Source: a bacterium | GTDB taxonomy: Bacteria; Oederibacteriota; JAAXVQ01; JAUVAV01 | NCBI GenBank assembly: GCA_021108215.1 | Contig: JAIORK010000045.1 | Span: 1 to 64,000, forward strand | Reading direction: 5' to 3' | Length of the DNA: 64,000 nt | Shown here: piece by piece, positions 42,170 through 56,177 of the stretch | Numbering within the stretch: the first letter of the stretch is position 1 | Layout: every line of letters starts with the position of its first letter | Notes under the pieces: generated by a model | Told to the model about the DNA's origin: nothing | Database searches by the model: none | The model's input: only the letters and a program-made list of their open reading frames with translations | Program-made: the position numbers and the translations under genes

Positions 42170-43078
42170 CTAACCAACCAGCATGAATATCGCTATTAAA
42201 ATAATGGCGGATGCACCGACACATGAAAATGATGTGTACGCTATTTTAAAATGACCGGTACTTTTCCGGACTATTTTTAAAAACGTCCGGCGCGACACAA
42301 TGGAAAACAATGCAATCGACGATGTGGTGAGTCCCATGCCCAGCGATACCGCGATCATTGCCAGCAATCCCTGCACAACAATACCGGTTAAAATGGCATA
42401 GGACAGTATGATCGCGGCTCCCGGACAGGGTATCAGTCCGGTCACCAAGGACGTCATGACCAGGCTTTTTATATCCGGCACTTTCCGGCCGTCTTCTTCC
42501 ACCGCAAAAGACCAGTGTCTGTATTCATGAATACTATGGCCGATTAAATACACCCCAACGCCCATCAGTAATACTGCGCTAAGCACTTTGATATAGCCGC
42601 TGAACTGATCGAACGCGGTTAATCCACTGACTTTAAAAACAAAATAGAATATCATGACGAGCACGACTGCTGAAAATACATGACTAAACGTCAGTAAATT
42701 CCCCATCATAAATCCGTGAACAATTTTTCCCGGACGACTCAAAAAATATGAAATCGCAATCGACTTGCCATGACCGGGACCCAATGCATGAAAAATACCG
42801 TACAAAAAAGCGAACCACAAAAAAAGCCAAAACGCCTTCCCAAAGGGCTTTTCTTTCATCTGCTTGGCAAAACTGATCAGCTTTTGTTTGAATGTTTTTT
42901 GATGTTTTTGACTGAAAGTGACAATCGGCTGTATCCAGGGATTGACCTTGCCTTTTGTCTGGAGCATACTTTTTTTCTGCAAAGCGCCTTTTCCTGTAAA
43001 CGGATTGGTCGCATAGGCACAGGCTGCCAGACTTGCCGTCAGAAGAACCATCACCAGCAATATTACTATCTGCTTCAT
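42170..43078 (-). CDS. RcnA/NicO-family nickel/cobalt transporter
   Basis: A 302-residue membrane protein with an N-terminal signal-like helix, a basic soluble segment of about 60 residues, then about six helices. The family signature FHALGPGHGKSIAISYF (HxxxxGH-type metal site) is at about residue 98, and VTGLIPCPGAAII marks the second half. It is in an operon with a DUF1007 gene, an arrangement common for nickel or cobalt uptake in this family. A nickel role is supported by the hydrogenase genes of the window. It overlaps the DUF1007 gene by 4 bases. Confidence 0.88.
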   Translation of the reverse strand: MKQIVILLVMVLLTASLAACAYATNPFTGKGALQKKSMLQTKGKVNPWIQPIVTFSQKHQKTFKQKLISFAKQMKEKPFGKAFWLFLWFAFLYGIFHALGPGHGKSIAISYFLSRPGKIVHGFMMGNLLTFSHVFSAVVLVMIFYFVFKVSGLTAFDQFSGYIKVLSAVLLMGVGVYLIGHSIHEYRHWSFAVEEDGRKVPDIKSLVMTSLVTGLIPCPGAAIILSYAILTGIVVQGLLAMIAVSLGMGLTTSSIALFSIVSRRTFLKIVRKSTGHFKIAYTSFSCVGASAIILIAIFMLVG

Positions 43079-43665
43079 TTTTTATTCCTTAATTTTATTG
43101 TCAGTGTTTCAGGAAACCCATCCCGTCCCAGAAACACAAAATCTTTGTTACGGTACATTAACGTGGATACTTCAAAAGCATCCGGCGTACCTTGCAATGC
43201 CGGTTTTTCATCCAGCATCGTCACAGCTGTAAAATAACTGGTATCAAATATGGAAACCTCAATTTTTTTGTTCGCAACAGATGCGCTTACATGACAGGGT
43301 ACATAAAAATTATAAACCAGTTTGTCTTTTTCAATCGACGGCTTAAAACCCTTAACATATTCCGGAGCAAACGGCTCGCCATTAATCCGGATATAGGTAA
43401 AATAATCAAAATCTTTTAAATTATCAAATGCTTCTTCTTTGATCACCGCAGTTTCCGCTTCATCAAATTTCCCGTCTTGATTTTTATCCTGATCGTCAAT
43501 AACCGACGCGCTGAACATTTCATCAAAAACCCAGGTTTCCTCAATACCGGCCAAACCCTTTTCATCAAAATGAATTATTAAGGAAGATTCTATAAACAGA
43601 TGCGGATGAGCGGATAATCCGTTCACCAGCAGCATCAATAAAAACACCCAACACACAATCCGCAC
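43075..43665 (-). CDS. DUF1007-family periplasmic protein
   Basis: A 196-residue exported protein with a signal peptide directly followed by AHPHLFIESSL, the usual N-terminus of DUF1007. An EF-hand-like loop DKNQDGKFDEAE is at residues about 60-71. DUF1007 proteins usually accompany NicO-type transporters and may present metal ions to them; the terminal His pair could bind nickel. The start has no strong ribosome-binding site. Confidence 0.85.
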   Translation of the reverse strand: MRIVCWVFLLMLLVNGLSAHPHLFIESSLIIHFDEKGLAGIEETWVFDEMFSASVIDDQDKNQDGKFDEAETAVIKEEAFDNLKDFDYFTYIRINGEPFAPEYVKGFKPSIEKDKLVYNFYVPCHVSASVANKKIEVSIFDTSYFTAVTMLDEKPALQGTPDAFEVSTLMYRNKDFVFLGRDGFPETLTIKLRNKK

Positions 43666-44050: not shown

Positions 44051-46303
44051 TTAAAAATTCCACCGAATGCCGCCGATGATCAGGCGCGGCAACTGGTTAA
44101 TCTCGCGTTTATCCGAGTAATCATTTTTATACTGATAGGAATTGACATTGGCATTGCCAAATAAATTGGTAACCTGGATATAAGAACGCCAGTTTGCCAA
44201 TCCAAAAAACGGCATGCTCAGTTTAATATCGGTTGATAAATAATCCGGATAACGCTCGCTGTTATATTTTCCATACACGGGTGTCCATTCATTGATCGCT
44301 GCTTGGTATTCCCCGCTCACAATGGGGGTGTAGAGACTGCCGGATGAATATTTCTGGGTCAATGCCAGTTTCCACGTCTCAGTAAAATTATAATTTACCA
44401 CCAAATTCAGGGTATGCGGCTGTTCCGTGATAGGTGTATACCATTCATTGACCGGCGTGGCGCTCTCAGGCCGGCCCAGGGTCTCAGGATCGGTGCGGCC
44501 GTTGATGCGGCGTTGGGTCTTGATCCAGCTGTAACTCAGCCAGCCGTCCCACTTGCCGCCAATCTCACGTTTAAGCATCACATCCAGGCCGTAGGCATAA
44601 CCATCACCATTGTTGGTGTAATTGATGTCAGGATCAGCATCAGAGACAATCAATCCGCTGTAATCCTTGTAATAACCATCCACCACAATGGAAACATCTT
44701 CCATAATAGTAACCTTGGTTCCTGCAACATAGTGCAAGGCCTCTTCGGCCAGTAAATCCGGATTCCCCAGTGAATCATCAATCTGCTGTCCGGAGATCGG
44801 ATACTGGCTGTATAAACCGGTTGCAAGATTCACTTCCCACACCGGCAGCGGCTGCACTTTGAGCATGATGCGCGGGTTGGCAATATATTGTTCGTTGGGG
44901 GTGTAATACTGCACATTGATACTCGGATTGATATAGAACAGATCGCGCAAGAGCATGATCTCATCTTGTAGAAAAACTCCTGCAAAAGATACCCCGCCGG
45001 TCTGCATTCGTTCATCAATCGTATCCACATAGTAACTATTATTCCCGGTCGGCAACCGGACCGAATTTACAATGCTTACTTCACCCCAGGCAGGAAACAA
45101 ATATACGCCGGCCCGGACATGTTGACTTTCCGAAATATCCCATTGCCAGACATGCCGCAACTGAATGATCACCTGGTCTTTTTCCATATTAAACGGCGTG
45201 AAAGCATCCGTGAAACTATATTCCCCCTGATTATAATACGCCCCCAACAAGGTCAAGGCGGAAAGGGTCTCGGAAAATTTATAATCCGATGCCAGACTGA
45301 GATTAAAATTCACATCCCAAAACATAAATTCCCTTTCTCCCGTGTTTTCAGATGAATAGCCCTCTTCCGGGCTTCTTTTCATATGCATGCCTTCAAAGGA
45401 AAAAATCGAATTAAGTGTCACCATATTTTTGTCAAAAGGAAACGCCAATTTGAGCTGCCCATCATAAAAATAAGGAAAAACCAGGCTTTCATCCGCATAA
45501 AGCAGATTGATTAATAAATCATAATGAGTACGCCGCAATCCGAACATAAATGAACTGTCTGCCGGACCAAGCGAAGGCCCCTCAACAAAAACATCAAGCG
45601 TTGTCGCTGAGAGATCGATAAACCCCTTGAATTTCTCGGGATTGCCAATTTTATTTTTGACATTCAAAATCCCGGACATGGCTTGAGGCCACTGGGCGGA
45701 AAAACCACCGGATTGAAACTCAAGCTTTTCCACCATATTGGGGTTAAACACCGAAATCATCCCGCCCCACATGTAGGGATCAATAATCACCATATCATCC
45801 AGGATGGCCAACATCTCATCCGGGTCGCCGCCGCGGATAAACAGCAGACTCGACATCTCGTGATTGGTGGCAACACCGGGCAGCAGCTGCACCACCTTCA
45901 TGACATCCGGAAAAAGCGAGGCTGTAGTCTGATTGATGATCTCTGCACTTAAATCCTGTTTACTTATCTGGATCACAGCTTCATCCTGATCTGCTTTGAC
46001 CACAAACCGGCTCATTTCGTAAACATTAAAATCATACAACTCAATCCGGGTATTGCCGGAATCGAGTTCGAGTGTTTTCTTGCGGTATCCCGGTGCAGAT
46101 ACTTCCACCTGAGCAGTATCTGCCTCAAGTATGAAATAACCGGCTTGGTCGGTTGTGACCACAACGCCCTTGGCCCCGAAAATCTTCGCTCCGCCGATTG
46201 CCGCAGCAGTGCTCCCGTCAACCACCTGACCGGTATAGACCTGAGCCATAAGCGCATTGGGGATTAAAAACAGCATAAACATGATAACCGTTTTTTTCAA
46301 CAT
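44051..46303 (-). CDS. TonB-dependent receptor with carboxypeptidase-regulatory-like N-terminus
   Basis: A 750-residue outer-membrane protein: signal peptide (about 20 residues), a carboxypeptidase-regulatory-like domain (VYTGQVVDGSTAAAIGGAKI, residues 22-95), a plug domain with VMKVVQLLPGVATNHEMSS and LFIRGGDPDEMLAILDDMVI, then a barrel of about 22 strands ending in LIIGGIRWNF with a C-terminal Phe. It resembles receptors for metal chelates, cobamides or other large ligands. No TonB, ExbB or ExbD is in the window, and no riboswitch indicates the ligand. The nickel transporter operon downstream is suggestive but not proof. Confidence 0.88.
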   Translation of the reverse strand: MLKKTVIMFMLFLIPNALMAQVYTGQVVDGSTAAAIGGAKIFGAKGVVVTTDQAGYFILEADTAQVEVSAPGYRKKTLELDSGNTRIELYDFNVYEMSRFVVKADQDEAVIQISKQDLSAEIINQTTASLFPDVMKVVQLLPGVATNHEMSSLLFIRGGDPDEMLAILDDMVIIDPYMWGGMISVFNPNMVEKLEFQSGGFSAQWPQAMSGILNVKNKIGNPEKFKGFIDLSATTLDVFVEGPSLGPADSSFMFGLRRTHYDLLINLLYADESLVFPYFYDGQLKLAFPFDKNMVTLNSIFSFEGMHMKRSPEEGYSSENTGEREFMFWDVNFNLSLASDYKFSETLSALTLLGAYYNQGEYSFTDAFTPFNMEKDQVIIQLRHVWQWDISESQHVRAGVYLFPAWGEVSIVNSVRLPTGNNSYYVDTIDERMQTGGVSFAGVFLQDEIMLLRDLFYINPSINVQYYTPNEQYIANPRIMLKVQPLPVWEVNLATGLYSQYPISGQQIDDSLGNPDLLAEEALHYVAGTKVTIMEDVSIVVDGYYKDYSGLIVSDADPDINYTNNGDGYAYGLDVMLKREIGGKWDGWLSYSWIKTQRRINGRTDPETLGRPESATPVNEWYTPITEQPHTLNLVVNYNFTETWKLALTQKYSSGSLYTPIVSGEYQAAINEWTPVYGKYNSERYPDYLSTDIKLSMPFFGLANWRSYIQVTNLFGNANVNSYQYKNDYSDKREINQLPRLIIGGIRWNF

Positions 46304-46679: not shown

Positions 46680-47693
46680 TCATTCCACCTCAAGCCTGCC
46701 AAATCCGGTGGAACGGGCCAATTGACCCTCCGAATATATCAAACCTTCCACCATAGGTAAAGTTTCAATCATGTCCAGGGCAGCTTCCGGGCCCAGCAGA
46801 AAAACCACAATCGAGGGCATGGGATCAGGATAATTGGCAGGCATCACCAGAGTTGCGGCATTAATCGTCCGTACGGGATAGCCGCTTTTCGCATCAAGAA
46901 TATGGTGAAAACGCCGGCCCTCAACCTCATAGTGCCTGAAGTAGTCGCCGGAAGTAAGCACCAGGCTGTCTTCCAATTCCAAACGTGTGATAATCGCTGT
47001 GGGATCATCGGGATCGGAAATGCCGACTTTCCATTTAACCAATTCACCCCGTTGTCCGGTCAGGACATCCCCACCTAAATTGACCAGATACTTGTATTGG
47101 CCCGCTGCCTGAAAATAGTCCCGGAGTTTGCGAAGAATCTCGAGTTTGGCAATCCCGCCCACATCGAGTTGAACATCTGCGTGGCCCAGTCGAATGGTTT
47201 TGGATGATGGGTCCCACTGGATTTTATCCATGCCCAAATGCTCGGTCACCTGGCGAATCGCAGCTTGGCCCGGCGGCGTTGAGATGCGCGCACCTTTGAA
47301 TCCCCACAGCCGCCCCAGCGACCCGACGGTAATATCAAACCGGCTGCCGGACCGCTCATACCAGTAAAAAGCATGGTCCAGGGTTGCGCCCATTTCATCT
47401 GAAACACGCATTGGCTTTAAATACGCGCTGCGGTTGATACGGCTTAATTCACTGTTCTCCAGCCGATCGCTATAGATCAGTTCCAACCGACTGATCTCAG
47501 CAAACGCCCCCGCAATCATTTTTTTTGCCAGAGGCTGATTTTTCACGATCACAGTAATCGTGACCCGGGTACCGATTGCCTTGCGCGTCTCAGTCACTTT
47601 GATGCTGCGCGCTGCGAAAAATACTCCGGTGATCACCATCCCAGCCAACAGCAACAGCATCAATCTGCGGACTTTCATCTTCACCATCGCCAT
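46680..47693 (-). CDS. apbE: ApbE, FAD:protein FMN transferase
   Basis: ApbE covalently attaches FMN from FAD to a Thr of target proteins, outside the cytoplasmic membrane. About 337 residues from ATG 47693: an N-terminal membrane anchor (LMLLLLAGMVITGVFFAA), then the ApbE fold with FDITVGSLGRLWGF, DVGGIAKLEILRKL, LVNLGGDVLTGQ, LTSGDYFRHYE and HHILDAKSGYPV carrying the Mg/FAD-site residues. The usual GxxAKGY is replaced by GGIAKLE, a small deviation. It is the last gene of the hgcAB-linked operon and overlaps the upstream barrel gene. No clear flavinylation target (SGAT motif) is seen in the window. Confidence 0.9.
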   Translation of the reverse strand: MAMVKMKVRRLMLLLLAGMVITGVFFAARSIKVTETRKAIGTRVTITVIVKNQPLAKKMIAGAFAEISRLELIYSDRLENSELSRINRSAYLKPMRVSDEMGATLDHAFYWYERSGSRFDITVGSLGRLWGFKGARISTPPGQAAIRQVTEHLGMDKIQWDPSSKTIRLGHADVQLDVGGIAKLEILRKLRDYFQAAGQYKYLVNLGGDVLTGQRGELVKWKVGISDPDDPTAIITRLELEDSLVLTSGDYFRHYEVEGRRFHHILDAKSGYPVRTINAATLVMPANYPDPMPSIVVFLLGPEAALDMIETLPMVEGLIYSEGQLARSTGFGRLEVE

Positions 47694-48844
47694 ACTACCC
47701 CAACCTGATTCTGAATTTCTTTCCAATCAAAAAAACCATCAAACGTCTTAGACCACGTGTAATCCAGCACGAATGATTCTGTCATCATCCAGACCACCTT
47801 GATCCGGGAATATTCATAATGACCGTAAGCACCCCAGTCGCCCTGCGGTTGTTCGGCTGCCAGCAGTGCGCTGATCCAAATCACATCACACAAACTACTT
47901 TCCAGCTTGATCCCCGGCATCCAATAGTCTTGTTCCGGCGTATGCTTCACACCAAATTGGGGTGCAATAATAAACTGTTCAGAATAAAAATCCCAGGGGA
48001 AACGCAGCAAAAAAGATGTCTGCTTCCCGCTGTCCCGGGAATACATTCCCAGCAACGGCGCAAACCCCTCATCTTGATAACGTATCCGCGTCTGCCAGGA
48101 TAAAAACGGGAACAAAGGCATATCCAGGCCCGCCAAAACCGAGCCCGCCTGATTTCCGTAGGCAGCCTCTCCCTGCAAAAACCATTTATTTTCAAATTCC
48201 CAGTCACCGGACAGGCTGGAATAAAACCCCGGATCACTCATCGCACGGGATGCGTCCGCAAACGGCGTTGACGCATCATAGACCAACAGCGCGCACAATT
48301 TCCCGCCTGCCATGTGGATGGTTTCGCTATAGCCGGAAAAATATACCGCCTTTTTTTGAAATGCCGACGGTTCCATCAGTCCGAAATAAAACACCTCATG
48401 CTCCCAATGGAAAAAACGATTTACATACGCAACACCTGCCACCGGACTATCCGCAATCAGCAAACCACTCCCCCGGACACCGGGACGAAACCGGCCTGCC
48501 TGGAATTTATGGCTGCGATTTTGATAGATTACTTGCGGAATTACAATGGCATGAAACGAAGCCCCGGCATACTCAAGTACCCTGGCAAAAACACCCACCC
48601 CCAGCGTCCCTTTCAGGAATTCAAAATCATAGATTGCTTCGATTTCTGTAAAAGGTCCGGCTTCATCCATGGTGCGCGTCGCACTACTCACCGTATCATC
48701 CAGCCAGGGCCTAACCTTGGTTGGTTCAAAAAACTGTTGCTGTGATTGATACCCCTGCTTTACGCGGCCATCCCAGGCGCACCAGGTATTACCGGCATAA
48801 ATCAACAACACCCCCATGACCCCGCTGAATAATATCCCTTTCAT
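47681..48844 (-). CDS. Exported protein, probably an outer-membrane barrel
   Basis: A 387-residue exported protein with an N-terminal signal (MKGILFSGVMGVLLIYAGNTWCAW). The mature part is rich in aromatic residues and alternating strands typical of outer-membrane proteins, ending in NQVGVVWRW. No family is recognised. ATG at 48844 overlaps the upstream stop (ATGA), which rules out the frame extending to 49045. Its link to ApbE and hgcAB by overlap suggests a shared transcript. Confidence 0.7.
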   Translation of the reverse strand: MKGILFSGVMGVLLIYAGNTWCAWDGRVKQGYQSQQQFFEPTKVRPWLDDTVSSATRTMDEAGPFTEIEAIYDFEFLKGTLGVGVFARVLEYAGASFHAIVIPQVIYQNRSHKFQAGRFRPGVRGSGLLIADSPVAGVAYVNRFFHWEHEVFYFGLMEPSAFQKKAVYFSGYSETIHMAGGKLCALLVYDASTPFADASRAMSDPGFYSSLSGDWEFENKWFLQGEAAYGNQAGSVLAGLDMPLFPFLSWQTRIRYQDEGFAPLLGMYSRDSGKQTSFLLRFPWDFYSEQFIIAPQFGVKHTPEQDYWMPGIKLESSLCDVIWISALLAAEQPQGDWGAYGHYEYSRIKVVWMMTESFVLDYTWSKTFDGFFDWKEIQNQVGVVWRW

Positions 48845-49347
48845 GGCGTCGCCTGCCCCAGCGTATCCACACGATAAATATTCATTCGTACACGTTTTAT
48901 AAATGCCGGCCAGTGACCCGCCAAATTCCGCCGCAACAGTTCCAATACTTCCGGATACACATTTCCCAAAGGTCCGTCTTTTAGGATTGCGGAATACCGG
49001 TGGGCCTGCATGTCCGTTCGTTCCCCCCCGGGAAAAACCAGCCATTCCACCAGTTGACCCTGCTTGTCCAGTACCGCCCAGACATGGGTATCACCTTCCC
49101 CGGTTTCCCAACCTGAAAACACACGAAAAACCCGATGACGCCGGACAAGAATATAATAGGTTTGGGTTTTAAAAATAAAACGCAGGATATGGTCATCCGC
49201 AGGATAGGCCTGACGAATTTCCCTGGCATCCCTGTGTGCGGGTGTTTTCGATCCCACACAGGCACACTGACTATTTTGATAATCAACCGCACTGCTTGCA
49301 GGACCGGCGATGAAACAAGCGGTCAACAGAAAGAAAAATTTTCGCAT
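48841..49347 (-). CDS. Exported protein of unknown function
   Basis: A 168-residue protein with signal peptide MRKFFFLLTACFIAGPASSA. The mature part begins with a small Cys pair (QCACVG) and contains a compact alpha/beta segment with VWAVLDKQGQLVEWLVFPGG, loosely like FMN-binding (NqrC-like) domains but lacking the SGAT flavinylation motif. The start is uncertain: ATG 49347 has the proper signal peptide but no good ribosome-binding site; GTG 49395 is an alternative. It sits between hgcB and the barrel gene. Confidence 0.65.
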   Translation of the reverse strand: MRKFFFLLTACFIAGPASSAVDYQNSQCACVGSKTPAHRDAREIRQAYPADDHILRFIFKTQTYYILVRRHRVFRVFSGWETGEGDTHVWAVLDKQGQLVEWLVFPGGERTDMQAHRYSAILKDGPLGNVYPEVLELLRRNLAGHWPAFIKRVRMNIYRVDTLGQATP

Positions 49348-49413
49348 GACGTTTATTGTAACGTTGATCGATTCAGGAGAAAAGCTGTTTTTCACAATGG
49401 CGCCAACAATACC

Positions 49414-49722
49414 TCAGCAACATGAAGACGATTTTTTCCCGTCCTGGACACAGTCACAGGTCGGTTCGCTATTGGTTAAAAATCCTTTGATAACCCCTGA
49501 AGCACACCCCACCCCGGCACGGACCGTGATGGCTTGAGACGGACAATTACGCGCACAGGCGCCGCATTCCATGCAGTCATCTTTTTCCACCAAGACCGCT
49601 TTGCTCCCTTCCATGCGAAAGACGGCATGCGGACATACTTGAACGCACATTTTACAACCAATACATTTTTCACGATCATACTTAAGTGTGACAACATTTT
49701 TTAAGTAGTGATTCCCCAGCAC
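49414..49722 (-). CDS. hgcB: HgcB, ferredoxin partner for mercury methylation
   Basis: A 102-residue [4Fe-4S] protein with all HgcB features: two cluster motifs (CIGCKMCVQVCP, residues 20-31; CMECGACARNCP, residues 50-61), the extra Cys73 in VGCASG, and a C-terminal vicinal Cys pair (SSCC, residues 101-102). HgcB reduces the HgcA cobalt so it can take a methyl group, and its Cys residues are thought to bind and pass Hg(II). The GTG start at 49722 has AGGAGG six bases upstream. It lies 13 bases after hgcA. A typical ferredoxin lacks Cys73 and the terminal pair. Confidence 0.95.
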   Translation of the reverse strand: MLGNHYLKNVVTLKYDREKCIGCKMCVQVCPHAVFRMEGSKAVLVEKDDCMECGACARNCPSQAITVRAGVGCASGVIKGFLTNSEPTCDCVQDGKKSSSCC

Positions 49723-49735
49723 GGCTTCCTCCTGT

Positions 49736-50779
49736 TTAAGTAAATTGACCCACGGTCCATATCACCACACCAATCACAAATACGGCGATCTGAATCGGAA
49801 CGGCAATTTTCATCTCTTTGAGCACACCGGACAAAGATGTATAGGTTGATGTCCCGGTAAAATTCATAGCTGAAAAAGAGGCCAATGAAACCACCATCAG
49901 ACTCCAAGCCAAATCATCCCAGATCACCCAAGCGGCCATCGCCGGCACGGTCATTTTTAAAACACCATAGACCAGCACCCCCATCAGCGCCCCTTTGCCT
50001 GCAAAAGCGCGTCCGGGGATAAACGGCAACAGCAGCGGGGTTAAAATCGTCCCGGCGGCCAAGCCGGCAAACAAAAATACCGCCGCGATAATCCCGCCGG
50101 CCAGTGCGGCATTCAAAGAAAATGCATAACGATGGACACTGGACAGCAGCATAAAGTAAAGCAATGCCCAAAAAACATATTTCATGTGCCCAATGACTTC
50201 AACGGGAATTAAAACCGCCCGGTCAAATACCGTAAAATAGATACGCCGCATTTTTTCAGTTGTCTTAAATTCATTCTCAATAAATGCCGGAATATTTTTG
50301 GCGCGGACAGGTCCATAGATAACCTGAAACCCGCCGGCCTGCCTCACCTGATGGGCCGCCACACCCGGCGCACCCAACTGGGGCACAATTAATTTGCGAT
50401 GCGTCACAATTTCATCCAAGCGCACCGACTTGACGCGCGCAATCATTTCCCCGGTTCCGAACGTCCCTTTGCCGGCTGCACACCAAACATTGATCCCGTG
50501 GGTATCCAGCACCAAAATCCAGGCACTGATTTTTTTTAACCGGCTGCGCAATGCATCAAAGCTCATTTTGTAATTGGCTGACACAAATACCGGTGAATTC
50601 GCATCCGGCTGATTCAACCCATAGATCCCCGGTGCTACTGTATAATCCATACGCCCAATATCAAACCGCGCCAGAAATCCGCCCCAATGATCGGCTGCGC
50701 ACAAACCCGACGTTGTCAGCATCACCGGACCGGCCGCGGTTTCAATATTTCCAAACAGATACTTTTTCTTTTCAGACAT
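49736..50779 (-). CDS. hgcA: HgcA, corrinoid-dependent mercury methyltransferase
   Basis: HgcA carries a methylcobamide and donates its methyl group, as a carbanion, to Hg(II), giving methylmercury. The 347-residue protein has a cytoplasmic corrinoid domain with the diagnostic cap helix NVWCAAGK at residues 97-104 (Cys100 is the lower cobalt ligand), then five membrane helices (about 220-347). The related CO-dehydrogenase corrinoid protein lacks both the cap motif and the membrane part. ATG at 50779 has GGGGCGG upstream; the longer frame to 50914 lies within arsC. It overlaps arsC by 8 bases and precedes hgcB by 13. This indicates the organism can methylate mercury. Confidence 0.95.
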   Translation of the reverse strand: MSEKKKYLFGNIETAAGPVMLTTSGLCAADHWGGFLARFDIGRMDYTVAPGIYGLNQPDANSPVFVSANYKMSFDALRSRLKKISAWILVLDTHGINVWCAAGKGTFGTGEMIARVKSVRLDEIVTHRKLIVPQLGAPGVAAHQVRQAGGFQVIYGPVRAKNIPAFIENEFKTTEKMRRIYFTVFDRAVLIPVEVIGHMKYVFWALLYFMLLSSVHRYAFSLNAALAGGIIAAVFLFAGLAAGTILTPLLLPFIPGRAFAGKGALMGVLVYGVLKMTVPAMAAWVIWDDLAWSLMVVSLASFSAMNFTGTSTYTSLSGVLKEMKIAVPIQIAVFVIGVVIWTVGQFT

Positions 50780-51233
50780 GATCCGCCCCGCCCTTGACAA
50801 TGTTTTCCGACATGGCCTGGATAAATATTTTAATTTCATCGCGAACCCTGCGATAATGCACCAGCGCGTCTTCTTCCGAATCCGCATCGCGCGCCAATTG
50901 GGGAGGATCGTCAAAACCCTGATGAATCACCTTAGCTGAACCCGGAAAAACCGGACAATTTTCCCGGGCATGCCCGCATACCGTGATAACATAATCAAAC
51001 GCAACATCCAAAAGTATATTCACCAACTTTGACTGGTGCCGGGATATGTCGACACCCGCTTCAGCCATCACCTTCACCGCACGCGGATTGAGTCCATGCG
51101 TTTCAATCCCAGCTGAATAAACATCCAGATGATTATTTTTCAAAAAACGGGCCCAGCCCTCGGCCATCTGGCTGCGGCAGGAATTCCCCGTACACAAAAA
51201 AAGTATTTTAAATTTTTCTTTTACAGACGGCAT
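50772..51233 (-). CDS. arsC: Arsenate reductase, thioredoxin-coupled ArsC
   Basis: A 153-residue low-molecular-weight-phosphatase-fold protein. The catalytic loop is CTGNSCR (Cys14), and the two further Cys at 86 and 93 keep exactly the spacing of the thioredoxin-coupled ArsC family (Cys10, 82 and 89 in the best-known member). It reduces arsenate to arsenite. The stop overlaps hgcA, so arsC and hgcA are translationally coupled. No arsenite pump or ArsR is in the window. An AAAGAAAAA-rich stretch, not a strong ribosome site, precedes the start. Confidence 0.92.
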   Translation of the reverse strand: MPSVKEKFKILFLCTGNSCRSQMAEGWARFLKNNHLDVYSAGIETHGLNPRAVKVMAEAGVDISRHQSKLVNILLDVAFDYVITVCGHARENCPVFPGSAKVIHQGFDDPPQLARDADSEEDALVHYRRVRDEIKIFIQAMSENIVKGGADHV

Positions 51234-51309
51234 AGTATCTCCGGGTTGATTTTCTGTATGGTCCCGGCAAACGATTCCCAGGCACCGACTATTTCACATG
51301 TCAGGTCAA

Positions 51310-52311
51310 TTATTTCCAGGCCAGCACACCCAGCGACTTGAGCGCCTGGGCGATACCCTGTTGAAGATTTCCATAGAGTGGCTCCCACGCAAACGCCTGA
51401 CGGACCTTGCTCGTATCCACCGCATAACCGGCTATTTTGTGTTCTGATGCCATGATCCCGCGCCGGATTTTCTCCCACCACAATGATGTTTTTTTCAGAT
51501 GAAACGCCAGCCCCATCAACCCTGTGACCATTTCTAAAAAATCATGATAAACCACTGCCGGGCCGCCAAAAATATAATCCTCATTACTCTTCCCTTGCAG
51601 CAGTGTCACCAAAACCGCTCCGGCCGCATCCTCCACATGCAAAGGTGGAATCCGATTGCCACCTTCCCCGATGACAGGAACATGCCCGGTATACTTAAGC
51701 GGCTCCACAATCTTCGTTTGCAGCCACCCGCCGGGACCATAAATTTCCGCCGGATGAACACGCATCACATTTCCGGCTTCCCGGCACTGCTGCAGGTAAT
51801 CATCCCAAATAAGGGAATAGGCCCTGCCGAACCCAATTTTATTGATTGCATGCGTCTCCCGGGCGACGGATGATTCTCCCGGCGCAGCGAAGAGCGCCGC
51901 CTGATCAACCATCACAATCTTTTTCACATCCGCTTCTTTTCCCCAACGCAGCAGGCGTGTTTTATGCGCCTGCAAACTTTCTGCATATTTTTCAACATTG
52001 CGTTCAAGGGATACGAACTCCGGTGTGGTGGCATCAATGACGGCATCATAGCCTGTCAGAGAGACCCTGGCGGCATCGGCGGTTAAAAAATTTTCCGACA
52101 CAATACACGAAATTCCATCTTCTTCCTGAAACGTATTTTCTTTTTCCTTAGAGACCACCACGCCAACCCGGTGCCCCCGGGCCAAAGCCTGCCGGGCAAG
52201 GGTGTCCCGAAGCATCGCATTTTTGCCCACCACCATAATCGTCATCACGTGCTCATCCGATGCCGTATGCTGCGCAGCGATTTTCTCTACCCCGAATTTT
52301 TCATCCCTCAT
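51310..52311 (-). CDS. NAD-binding epimerase-like (extended SDR) protein
   Basis: A 333-residue protein. After a 22-residue lead it shows a Rossmann start (MTIMVVGKNAMLRDTL, with GxxxxxxD-type loop variation) and typical extended-SDR phrases RVHPAEIYGPGGWLQTKIV and PPLHVEDAAGAVLVTLLQG. The catalytic Tyr/Lys pair of true epimerases is not obvious. It could be a quinone- or NADH-binding reductase. The start at 52311 has GGTGATG upstream and lies just after the PP-loop gene. Confidence 0.78.
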   Translation of the reverse strand: MRDEKFGVEKIAAQHTASDEHVMTIMVVGKNAMLRDTLARQALARGHRVGVVVSKEKENTFQEEDGISCIVSENFLTADAARVSLTGYDAVIDATTPEFVSLERNVEKYAESLQAHKTRLLRWGKEADVKKIVMVDQAALFAAPGESSVARETHAINKIGFGRAYSLIWDDYLQQCREAGNVMRVHPAEIYGPGGWLQTKIVEPLKYTGHVPVIGEGGNRIPPLHVEDAAGAVLVTLLQGKSNEDYIFGGPAVVYHDFLEMVTGLMGLAFHLKKTSLWWEKIRRGIMASEHKIAGYAVDTSKVRQAFAWEPLYGNLQQGIAQALKSLGVLAWK

Positions 52312-52312
52312 A

Positions 52313-53305
52313 TTACATCACCAGCCATTGCTTGACCTCCGCCTCATCGGCTGCAGCCACCGTCACAATACGTTCCGGTGCCTGACCATGCTTGATCACC
52401 AGATCAAGGGGGCCGTCATGCTTGCAGTAATAAGCCACAATTGCATTTGCCAGCCCGGCATGATCCTCGCTCCCTACTCCGCGCAACAGCGCGGTCGGCC
52501 CCTTGCCCTCTCGGGGCTCTATAATATAATCCTCTGTCCGGGAATGTTTGACAAGTAATTTACACTCTTTTTCATTCCGTGCCACGACCAGTTTACATTT
52601 CTCACTCAGATTAAAAAAACGCCCTAATTGGATCCAATGACAATTTTCAATATCCAGCATATCCGATTCCAGAAGATTTTTCAATTTACGCGAGTAACCT
52701 GAATCTGTTAACAAACAGCCGCCTGCCGGTGTGCTGTAATCTTGCAGACCCCATTCCTGGGCCAGCGCCATCTGCCGCTTCCTCCCACGGCCGCCAATAT
52801 CCAATAAAAACTCCTCAGCAACCCACCCCTCGGTCTGAGGTATTGTTGGCGGCAGCAATTTGGCTGAGAGCGGTCTTACCACCAGCCCATCCAAACCTGA
52901 CTTACGTGCAATCAAGTCCAACGCCTGCTTATGCTGGCTCATGGGCCTCTGTCCCAACACCTCGCCGGTCACAATAAAATCAGCCTGCCATGTCTGCATG
53001 AGCTGTTTGGCCGTTTGCAGCATCAATAAATGGCAATCGATGCAGGGATTAATGTTTTTTCCCCGGCCGTGTTTGGGGTCGCGGATCACGTCAAGCAGAT
53101 CATCGGTCAAAGGAACTTCACGCAATGTCACTGAAAATTGATCCTGTACGACTTTCCCGTAATTAATCATCCCTGATTTGCTATAAGGATTGTGAAACGG
53201 GGTTTGAAACATGACAGGAATGACCTCGACCCCCGCCCGCTGCATCAAACCGATCACCAACATACTGTCCAACCCTCCGGAATAAAGGACGATTGCTTTT
53301 TTCAT
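52313..53305 (-). CDS. PP-loop ATPase, probable tRNA thiolation enzyme (ThiI-like)
   Basis: A 330-residue protein beginning with the PP-loop SGGLDSML (residues 9-16). Conserved Cys in INPCIDC and GGCLLTD lie in the central part. The C-terminal about 110 residues resemble an NFACT-type RNA-binding domain seen in ThiI-like relatives. Such proteins adenylate a base of tRNA for sulfur transfer. A role in delivering sulfur elsewhere is possible. It is the first gene of the long operon that includes hgcAB. Confidence 0.8.
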   Translation of the reverse strand: MKKAIVLYSGGLDSMLVIGLMQRAGVEVIPVMFQTPFHNPYSKSGMINYGKVVQDQFSVTLREVPLTDDLLDVIRDPKHGRGKNINPCIDCHLLMLQTAKQLMQTWQADFIVTGEVLGQRPMSQHKQALDLIARKSGLDGLVVRPLSAKLLPPTIPQTEGWVAEEFLLDIGGRGRKRQMALAQEWGLQDYSTPAGGCLLTDSGYSRKLKNLLESDMLDIENCHWIQLGRFFNLSEKCKLVVARNEKECKLLVKHSRTEDYIIEPREGKGPTALLRGVGSEDHAGLANAIVAYYCKHDGPLDLVIKHGQAPERIVTVAAADEAEVKQWLVM

Positions 53306-53354: not shown

Positions 53355-53419
53355 CTTTTGGATTGATAAACCTATTGTAAAATATTGCTGTCCAAATAAA
53401 CGTTATCCACTGTCACTGA

Positions 53420-53558
53420 ATCGCCATGGATGCCGGTTTTTTCAGGAAAACCGACACTGTGTCCACACGCTAGAGCCGGCAATGCCGATAAGGTCTAACC
53501 ATGTCCCCTGAACACTTGGGGTGCGTTTTTTCCTGGAAAAATCAGCATCCATGGTGAT
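53420..53558. repeat. Inverted repeat, about 30-base arms
   Basis: Arms starting ATCGCCATGGATGC (53420-53450) and its complement (53525-53558) match with a few differences (CGGTTTTTTCAGG against TGATTTTTCCAGG). About 75 bases lie between. It is in the 500-base gap between the long operon and metY and is not part of any gene. Confidence 0.8.
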
Positions 53559-53620
53559 CTCGATTGACCACTGATTCTTCAATTTTGACGCGCATGATTG
53601 TAAAATAAACATATTTTGAC

Positions 53621-53758
53621 AGACATCCGAAGGGTCTTTTGAAAAAATATTGAAGCGGAAATCGTTTTCACAATTTGCCCAGCCGAACAAGGCTTTAAAA
53701 ACCACCATATTTTTGCAGTTGCCGCGCAATGTTTTTCCAAAAGACCCTTCGGATGTCT
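53621..53758. repeat. Inverted repeat, 27-base arms with one mismatch
   Basis: AGACATCCGAAGGGTCTTTT at 53621-53640 and its complement ending at 53758, extended by A-runs, match at 26 of 27 positions. About 84 bases lie between. It is 50 bases after the metY stop and could form a very stable hairpin. Confidence 0.85.
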
Positions 53759-53807
53759 TATCTCAACAGTGTTATGCCAAATTATGGTTTCCACTTTTTT
53801 TCCAAGC

Positions 53808-55100
53808 TTAAACTGTTCTATTCAGCGCCTGTTTTATATCATCAATAATATCTTCCACATTTTCAATCCCAATCGAAAGCCGGACAAGATCAGGTGTAAT
53901 CCCGCCTTCCTGCTGCTGTTGGGCAGTCAATTGAGAATGTGTGGTCGATGCCGGATGAATGGCCAGACTCTTGGCATCCCCGACATTGGCCAAATGAGAA
54001 ATCAATTCCAGCGACTCAATAAATTTCTGACCCTTGGTGCCGCCGCCTTTGATCCCAAATACTACCATACCGCCAAAACCCTTAGTTAAATACTTGGCAG
54101 CTGTCGCATGCCCCGGATCGGATTGCAGACCCGGATAGCGAACCCAGCTGACCTGATCATGCTTTGCCAGAAACTCGGCCACGGCCTGCGCATTTTCACA
54201 ATGCCGCTGCATCCGTAAAGGCAATGTCTCGATCCCCTGCAAAAACTGCCAGGCATTGTCCGGAGCAATACACGCCCCCAGATTGCGCAAGGGAACAAGA
54301 CGCATACGCAAAATAAAGGCCAGGGGCTGCAAAGGACCCAAATCCAGTCCAAACCGCAAATCATGATAACTTGGTTCCGGTTCGGTATAAAGGGAGAATT
54401 TTTTATCCGTCCAGTCAAATTTACCACTGTCCACAACAATACCGCCGATGCCGGTCCCGTGTCCGCCCAGCCATTTGGTCAGTGAATGAATCACAACATC
54501 TGCACCGTGTTCCAGCGGCCGGAGCAGATAAGGTGTGGCAAAAGTCGAATCCACCACCAGGGGCAAATGATGCTCCCGGGCCACAGCCGCGATAGCTGCA
54601 ATATCCGTCACTTCCAGCGCCGGATTACCGATGCTTTCAATAAATAACATCCGGGTGCGCTCATTGACAGCTGCTTTAAATTCTTCCGGCTTACCCGGAT
54701 CCACCAGATGGACCTTAATTCCAAATTTCGGCAAAATAGCGTCAAACATGGTGTAGGTCCCGCCATATAAATTGCGGGCCGCCACCACCTCATCCCCCTG
54801 CTGACATATATTAATCACCGTGTTAAAAACAGCAGCTGTGCCTGAAGCATGTGCCAGTGCTGCCGTACCGCCTTCCAACGCGGCAATTCTTTTTTCCAGC
54901 ACGTCCTGAGTGGGATTCATCAGGCGCGTGTAAATATTGCCCAACTCCTTCAACCCGAATAGATTGGCTGCATGCTCGGTATCACGAAAAACAAAACTGC
55001 TGGTCCGGTGCAGCGGAACCGCCCGGGAAAGTGTTACCGAATCCGGCACATGCCCGGCATGTAAAACCTGGGTCTCAAAACGATAGTTTTTATCACTCAT
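53808..55100 (-). CDS. metY: O-acetylhomoserine sulfhydrylase (MetY)
   Basis: A 430-residue PLP enzyme of the Cys/Met metabolism family. It makes homocysteine from O-acetylhomoserine and sulfide. Visible motifs are the N-terminal FETQVLHAGHVPDSVTLSRA, NPTQDVLEKRIAALEGG, VVDSTFATPYLLRPLEHGAD and the PLP Lys in HSLTKWLGGHG. The long insertion and DWTDKKFSLYTEPEPSYHD region mark MetY rather than MetB/MetZ. ATG at 55100 is chosen for AAGGAG upstream. It follows cysK and is the last gene of the Rrf2-headed operon. Confidence 0.93.
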   Translation of the reverse strand: MSDKNYRFETQVLHAGHVPDSVTLSRAVPLHRTSSFVFRDTEHAANLFGLKELGNIYTRLMNPTQDVLEKRIAALEGGTAALAHASGTAAVFNTVINICQQGDEVVAARNLYGGTYTMFDAILPKFGIKVHLVDPGKPEEFKAAVNERTRMLFIESIGNPALEVTDIAAIAAVAREHHLPLVVDSTFATPYLLRPLEHGADVVIHSLTKWLGGHGTGIGGIVVDSGKFDWTDKKFSLYTEPEPSYHDLRFGLDLGPLQPLAFILRMRLVPLRNLGACIAPDNAWQFLQGIETLPLRMQRHCENAQAVAEFLAKHDQVSWVRYPGLQSDPGHATAAKYLTKGFGGMVVFGIKGGGTKGQKFIESLELISHLANVGDAKSLAIHPASTTHSQLTAQQQQEGGITPDLVRLSIGIENVEDIIDDIKQALNRTV

Positions 55101-55205
55101 TTTCCAAATCTCCTTTACTAGTGTTTTTGCTTTCAATTCTCTGCTGTCAAAATTATTTGCTAGTCGCTCTAAGTGCTGTATTTTTAAAGTCAGACAAAAA
55201 TATTT

Positions 55206-56126
55206 TTAATTAAAAACCCAGGTAGAAAGATAGCGTTCACCTGTGTCACAACCAATTGTCACAATTGTCTTGCCGGCATTTTCCGGGCGGCGTGCCGTCA
55301 CCAGCGCAGCATGAACATTGGCCCCGGTAGAAATCCCTGCTAAGATACCTTCCTCCCGTGCCAACCGCCTGGCTGCTTCACCGGCCTCTTCATCCACCAC
55401 AGTGATCACCTCATCAATAATATCACGATTAAGCACGTCCGGAATAAACCCGGCACCGATCCCTTGAATTTTATGCGGTCCCGGTTTCCCGCCGGATAAA
55501 ACCGGCGAGGTGGCGGGTTCCACGGCCACCACATTCACTTCCGGTTTACGTGATTTTAAAACCTCACCGACCCCGGTAATAGTTCCGCCGGTTCCCACAC
55601 CTGCCACAAAAATATCCACTTTGCCATCCGTATCATCCCATATCTCCACTGCGGTTGTTTTGCGATGGATCTCAGGATTAGCCGAATTTTTAAATTGCTG
55701 GGGTATGTGGGCCCCGGGCATCTCGGCCGCGAGTTTTTCCGCCCGGGAAATCGCCCCGCGCATACCTTCTGCGCCGGGTGTGAGAATAATCTCCGCACCC
55801 AGGGCATTCAATATCTGCCTCCGTTCCATGCTCATCGTATCCGGCATGGTCAATATCAAGCGATATCCCTTAACCGCACAAACCATGGCCAGGCCAATAC
55901 CCGTATTCCCGCTGGTGGGTTCAATAATAACCCCACCCGGGCGCAATACGCCTTGCTGCTCCGCTGCAGCAATCATTGACAGCGTAATACGGTCCTTCAC
56001 ACTGGCACCGGGGTTAAACGACTCTAACTTCACCAAAACCTCAGCCTTCAAATCCTTGGCCATATTTTTCAAGCGTACCAAAGGTGTCTTCCCGACTAAA
56101 TCCAAAATACTATTACTGATTTTCAT
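55206..56126 (-). CDS. cysK: Cysteine synthase (CysK)
   Basis: A 306-residue O-acetylserine sulfhydrylase that makes cysteine from O-acetylserine and sulfide. It shows [10 protein letters not shown] with the PLP Lys, the [14 protein letters not shown] substrate loop, [14 protein letters not shown], and [11 protein letters not shown] near the C-terminus. ATG at 56126 gives AAGAG a good distance; ATG 56132 is an alternative. It lies 52 bases after the Rrf2 regulator and 105 bases before metY. Confidence 0.95.
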
Positions 56127-56177
56127 GTTCATCACTCTTTCTTGTTTTTGTGGATATGATCCCTTTATTGATTTTTT

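Follow-up and report, generated by a model that had tools for sequence, protein, structure and literature searches.

HgcA methylates Hg(II) via a corrinoid, with HgcB giving electrons and relaying Hg(II), whereas the substrate of ArsC is arsenate, which it reduces with thioredoxin. Methylmercury is a major neurotoxin. The pairing of arsenic and mercury genes is already known, having been published in 2020 by McDaniel et al., who described ars genes beside hgcAB (PMC7438021, Fig. 6), read the scattered HgcAB phylogeny as horizontal transfer and listed Ca. Firestonebacteria among the putative methylators. Control of hgcAB by ArsR has been shown in Pseudodesulfovibrio, as far as the citing text in PMC10349881 describes it. 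The hgcAB locus considered here lies in a window of 64,000 nucleotides (nt), the whole stretch of DNA analyzed, from contig 45 of a 3.56 Mb genome that is 97% complete. Inspection of the open reading frames (ORFs) located eight co-directional genes on the minus strand of this window, at 46680-53305, encoding, in order of transcription, a PP-loop ATPase, a short-chain dehydrogenase/reductase (SDR), ArsC, HgcA, HgcB, a small exported protein, an outer-membrane protein (OMP) and ApbE. It is likely that this run is a composite of three blocks with separate histories, in which SDR-arsC-hgcA-hgcB occupies the junction of two resident clusters.

Probable composite structure of the hgcAB locus

Both flanking blocks exist independently of hgcAB. 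Genomes of the same family that lack hgcA (G003, G004, G005 and G007), together with G002 from family f2, provided the comparison. The PP-loop gene lies downstream of cysK-metY in G003, G004, G005 and G002, and downstream of metY in G007; it is thus the closing gene of a predicted resident cysK-metY-PP-loop sulfur cluster, which would constitute the first block. The second block, exported protein-OMP-apbE, would open a resident envelope cluster that does not need hgcAB: it is present in G003 and G004, and in G004 the 4-nt (ATGA) and 13-nt overlaps between its genes are identical to those of the window. Beyond apbE lie a TonB receptor, a LolA-like gene, another OMP and an ABC ATPase in G004, and a TonB receptor, a LolA-like protein, an OMP and ABC/FtsX genes in the window; the TonB receptor gene directly after apbE in G004 is 61% identical to that of the window. 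A single contig of G007 carries the PP-loop gene up to position 2021 and apbE from 2071 onward, leaving 49 bp between them. The third block, the metal(loid) genes SDR-arsC-hgcA-hgcB, sits in the window exactly at this junction between the PP-loop gene and the envelope cluster, and probably arrived as an ars-hgc island or stems from one.

The phylogeny of HgcA is consistent with such a history. The nearest HgcA (63% identity) belongs to G006, a genome of the same family, and the two form a group with a Shimodaira-Hasegawa-like approximate likelihood ratio test (SH-aLRT) value of 99, joined next by L003 and sequences from Omnitrophota/Desantisbacteria, while the window protein stands apart from family f2 of the same order and from most phylum mates. 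In G006, hgcAB is located elsewhere, in an ars-operon context unlike that of the window. This grouping, combined with the different location in G006, points to horizontal movement of hgcAB, and trees and context together suggest that the whole SDR-arsC-hgcAB block was probably acquired horizontally. As to co-inheritance of ArsC with HgcA, the ArsC tree gave no resolved placement of the query.

Several observations weigh against this interpretation. Guanine-cytosine content (GC) and GC at third codon positions (GC3) of SDR-arsC-hgcAB match those of the flanks, so that composition gives no sign of a recent transfer; the contigs of G003 and G004 end between the PP-loop gene and the exported protein, where an unassembled insert is possible; few genomes of the family are available; and loss of the block in G007 would equally account for its tight junction. 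In an alternative history, hgcAB, arsC and SDR already stood at the junction in the family ancestor, were lost in G003, G004, G005 and G007, and in G006 saw hgcAB moved. The sister relationship of the two HgcA proteins of the family would agree with this scenario, as would the short G007 gap (L132:2021-2071), which can be read as ...PSQATT... and MEWRW*, similar to how the exported protein and the OMP end, and which is perhaps a deletion scar, though too short to prove one. An ancestral block would require several losses plus one relocation, however, none of the same-family genomes carries a homologue of the SDR, and G006 carries its hgcAB in a different, ars-operon context, which together make this history unlikely. 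Insertion of a metal(loid) block between two resident clusters is accordingly the preferred account.

The SDR gene itself appears to be an orphan. Its only family assignment is a weak, epimerase-like Pfam match (Table 1), the canonical GxxGxxG and YxxxK motifs are not evident by eye, and no close homologue was found in 45 phylum genomes, where the best matches reached 26-27% identity.

Two further HgcA sequences encountered during the comparison deserve mention. In the L003 protein (L003:908-2068), the cap helix reads NVWCDAGK and the N-terminus is extended by a cysteine-rich stretch; a MarR-like regulator is encoded before it. At L177:4606-5855, a divergent HgcA-like protein with NVWCSSGK, scoring 165.7 bits against a cut-off of 275, is accompanied by an HgcB-like ferredoxin; an arsR-like gene lies downstream, arsC is about 2 kb away, and cysK and a PP-loop gene are found on the other side.

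HgcA, HgcB and ArsC

The HgcA of the window scores well above the curated NCBIfam cut-off and combines the corrinoid domain, a cap helix, NVWCAAGK, that conforms to N(V/I)WCA(A/G)GK, and the C-terminal membrane part. The adjoining HgcB likewise exceeds its cut-off and shows two 4Fe-4S motifs and C-terminal cysteines, with CMECGAC in its sequence and SSSCC at its end. HgcAB of the window is thus a predicted mercury methylation pair, in which HgcA would transfer the methyl group of the corrinoid to Hg(II), with HgcB as the reductant of the corrinoid and the relay for Hg(II). Because the ArsC score falls below the TIGR02691 equivalog cut-off, its type was assigned by motifs and by similarity to PDB 1jl3: the catalytic residues CX5R (CTGNSCR), CX6C (CGHARENC) and Asp-Pro (DDPP) are kept, and the protein resembles the thioredoxin-coupled pI258 type, with thioredoxin-dependent reduction of arsenate as its predicted activity.

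The 8-nt overlap noted in the original prediction was confirmed, with the hgcA ATG at 50779 and the end of arsC at 50772. Such an overlap may couple the translation of ArsC and HgcA, and both proteins might respond to the same thiophilic-metal signal. The arsenite efflux pump Acr3 (TIGR00832) was not found anywhere in the genome despite the presence of ArsC; no arsenite efflux gene occurs among the eight genes either, ArsB not having been searched genome-wide. Acr3 is sparse among genomes of the class (3/8), and its absence here leaves the standard detoxification circuit incomplete unless another exporter exists.

Recurrence of arsenic genes beside hgcA

The link between arsC and hgcAB is supported as recurrent across several HgcA lineages by gene neighborhoods. 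In G006, the order is arsR, an arsC remnant, acr3, hgcA and hgcB, the remnant being a 38-aa stretch with an in-frame TGA between arsR and acr3 (L002:2440-2550). Only 3 nt separate arsC from a downstream hgcA in two f4 genomes and in a genome of Ignavibacteriota, and an arsC-like gene follows hgcB in Clostridium liquoris and Acetivibrio mesophilus, the Clostridium copy looking broken. Within the phylum, arsC or acr3 occurs within ~6 kb of hgcA at 12 of 18 loci, a count made by hand that ignores relatedness, and one further locus has only an arsR-like gene. A broader sample came from a genome-wide scan that yielded 80 other hgcA loci, many on short contigs and some with incomplete flanks; at only a few loci of this broad sample does arsC stand within 10 kb of hgcA.

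That low frequency, as well as the lack of Acr3, the usual partner of ArsC, from the genome itself, could be taken to mean that arsC stands beside hgcA by chance alone. Such a coincidence is highly improbable, given that three HgcA lineages place arsC immediately before hgcA, either 3 nt away or overlapping it, that the nearest relative retains an arsC remnant and acr3, that arsenic genes lie nearby at most of the phylum loci, and that ars-hgcAB association has been reported independently in the literature. Of the link originally proposed between arsenate reduction and mercury methylation, the association of arsC, and of ars genes generally, with hgcAB is supported by its recurrence in several HgcA lineages; all eight genes as one functional unit are not. 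The same holds for gene order, for which conservation in other genomes had been suggested as a check: the arsC-hgcAB adjacency recurs, whereas the full eight-gene order was found neither at the 80 hgcA loci, nor at the hgcA loci of the phylum, nor in any relative.

A more far-reaching possibility is that hgcAB serves arsenic metabolism in this lineage, with ArsC, produced in concert with HgcA but having no Acr3 pump as partner, supplying As(III) or thiol adducts of As(III) to the corrinoid system of HgcAB. If true, the natural role of HgcAB in the lineage would lie in the handling of metalloids and not in mercury methylation itself, but there is very little probability that this is the case. 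The tight pairing of arsC and hgcA in unrelated HgcA lineages sharpens the arsenic-mercury hypothesis and names testable loci.

The envelope block and the flavin question

The original prediction also envisaged that the exported proteins and ApbE form a flavin-based electron path to the envelope. In its full form, this would make the eight genes one functional operon, in which the exported protein, OMP and ApbE serve or protect mercury methylation while arsC and the PP-loop enzyme counter thiol or metalloid stress. The genes do share one direction and are closely spaced, no clear terminator interrupts them, ApbE is genuine, and the C-terminal QAT of the exported protein resembles the ApbE target motif. 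Since the flanking blocks are present in same-family genomes without hgcA, the exported protein-OMP-apbE block specifically in G003 and G004, a flavin path tied to mercury methylation is unsupported, and it was rejected as the main interpretation. Moreover, homologues of the PP-loop protein, SDR, exported protein, OMP and ApbE were found at E <= 1e-3 at none of the 80 other hgcA loci within the fetched flanks, the exported protein has no detectable FMN_bind similarity, and QAT does not satisfy the [S/T]GA[S/T] flavinylation motif. A single eight-gene functional unit is therefore very unlikely, and the association of ApbE and the PP-loop enzyme with hgcAB is explained by neighboring resident clusters and should stay out of models of mercury methylation.

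Orthologues of the exported protein are restricted to G003 and G004 (three phylum genomes including that of the window), where they always directly precede OMP-apbE. The three proteins share an invariant CACVGSK and a C-terminal D[TA][LVI][GST]QATP, whose conservation may stem from the overlap of the last codons with the OMP start. Neither the exported protein nor the OMP has a match in Pfam or NCBIfam, and no FMN_bind, DUF2271 or DUF3570 domain was matched in the exported protein. The idea that it is an FMN_bind protein was discarded after Pfam, PDB profile, hhalign and Foldseek searches all returned no significant match: hhalign against an FMN_bind protein gave a probability of 1.3, and in the Foldseek search with a structure model of predicted local distance difference test (pLDDT) score 67, NqrC appeared merely at rank 22 with an E-value of 1.5. 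The model of the OMP, which also has orthologues in G003 and G004, is strand-rich but of low confidence (pLDDT 43) and too poor for a structural assignment. ApbE orthologues in G003, G004 and G007 are 45-48% identical. The genome itself encodes two apbE genes and zero Pfam FMN_bind proteins, so that the apbE of the window qualifies as an "orphan" as PMC8238504 uses the term. It is possible that the exported protein is a candidate new ApbE substrate, which would act within the resident envelope cluster rather than in mercury methylation.

Gene organization and neighboring features

The junctions of the run comprise a gap of 1 nt between the PP-loop and SDR genes, 76 nt between SDR and arsC, and 13 nt between hgcA and hgcB. 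The distance from hgcB to the exported protein is 18 nt from a GTG at 49395 or 69 nt from an ATG at 49344, the latter being the likelier start and the one shared with relatives; this gene overlaps the OMP by 4 nt (ATGA), and OMP and apbE overlap by 13 nt. Terminator-like sites are not enriched in the region (7 found versus 9.9 expected from shuffles), and a search of the region for RNA families found none. Shared transcription of the eight genes is possible.

Table 1. Predicted genes of the hgcAB run and adjacent resident clusters (window coordinates)
Feature	Position	Strand	Support
PP-loop ATPase, ThiI-like domain and NFACT-R_2	52313..53305	-	PF02568 39 bits, PF18297 61 bits
Extended-SDR / NAD-epimerase-like protein, orphan	51310..52311	-	PF01370 34 bits
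ArsC, thioredoxin-coupled type, predicted arsenate reductase	50772..51233	-	TIGR02691 159.7 bits (cut-off 174.3); PDB 1jl3 E=1e-36
HgcA, predicted corrinoid Hg(II) methyltransferase	49736..50779	-	NF040863 415 bits (cut-off 275)
HgcB ferredoxin	49414..49722	-	NF040864 131 bits (cut-off 99)
Small exported protein, 167 aa, signal peptide	48841..49344	-	Orthologues in G003, G004
Outer-membrane beta-barrel-like protein (OMP)	47681..48844	-	Orthologues in G003, G004; no Pfam family
ApbE FAD:protein FMN transferase	46680..47693	-	PF02424 203 bits
MetY, O-acetylhomoserine sulfhydrylase, resident upstream cluster	53808..55103	-	TIGR01326 626 bits
CysK cysteine synthase, resident upstream cluster	55206..56135	-	TIGR01139 469 bits
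TonB-dependent receptor, next gene of resident envelope cluster	44051..46303	-	PF07715 match

Additional features were observed in both resident clusters. The interval 53410-53770, which separates metY from the PP-loop gene, contains two tandem stem-loop elements with inverted arms of 31 and 32 nt and matches about 25 further places in the genome, which marks it as a dispersed repeat. In the envelope cluster, DUF1007 and NicO (nickel/cobalt transporter-like) genes at 42170-43665 separate the TonB receptor from the TetR/LolA-like genes; the pair is absent at the matching G004 position (L129) and appears to be another insertion. A general link of cysK/metY with hgcAB was also considered; such genes occur near hgcAB at a few of the 80 loci, but they belong to common families for which no control was run, and the link is not claimed.

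Comparison with known systems

The apbE block resembles the extracytosolic flavinylation clusters described by Meheust et al. (2021, PMC8238504) in that apbE is coupled to a small exported protein with a TonB receptor nearby, and an orphan apbE in a genome without an FMN_bind protein corresponds to the situation that guided that paper's search for new substrates. It differs in its lack of an FMN_bind, DUF2271 or DUF3570 match, in the C-terminal QAT in place of [S/T]GA[S/T], and in that the cluster contains no known transmembrane electron donor. In Pseudodesulfovibrio, where hgcAB is ArsR-regulated (Goni-Urriza 2020; Gionfriddo 2023; both as cited in PMC7438021 and PMC10349881), arsenic genes are likewise tied to hgcA transcription, as they would be at the present locus, whereas its eight genes include no arsR and its ars gene encodes a reductase rather than a regulator. 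Compared with the ars-associated neighborhoods in PMC7438021, the window is distinguished by the 8-nt overlap of arsC with hgcA, by a genome in which no Acr3 was found, and by the position of its block between cysK-metY-PP-loop and the envelope cluster with apbE, a placement that the literature examined does not show. It is to these neighborhoods, in which hgcAB is flanked by, or lies a few ORFs from, arsC, acr3, arsM or arsR, that the SDR-arsC-hgcAB block is otherwise alike.

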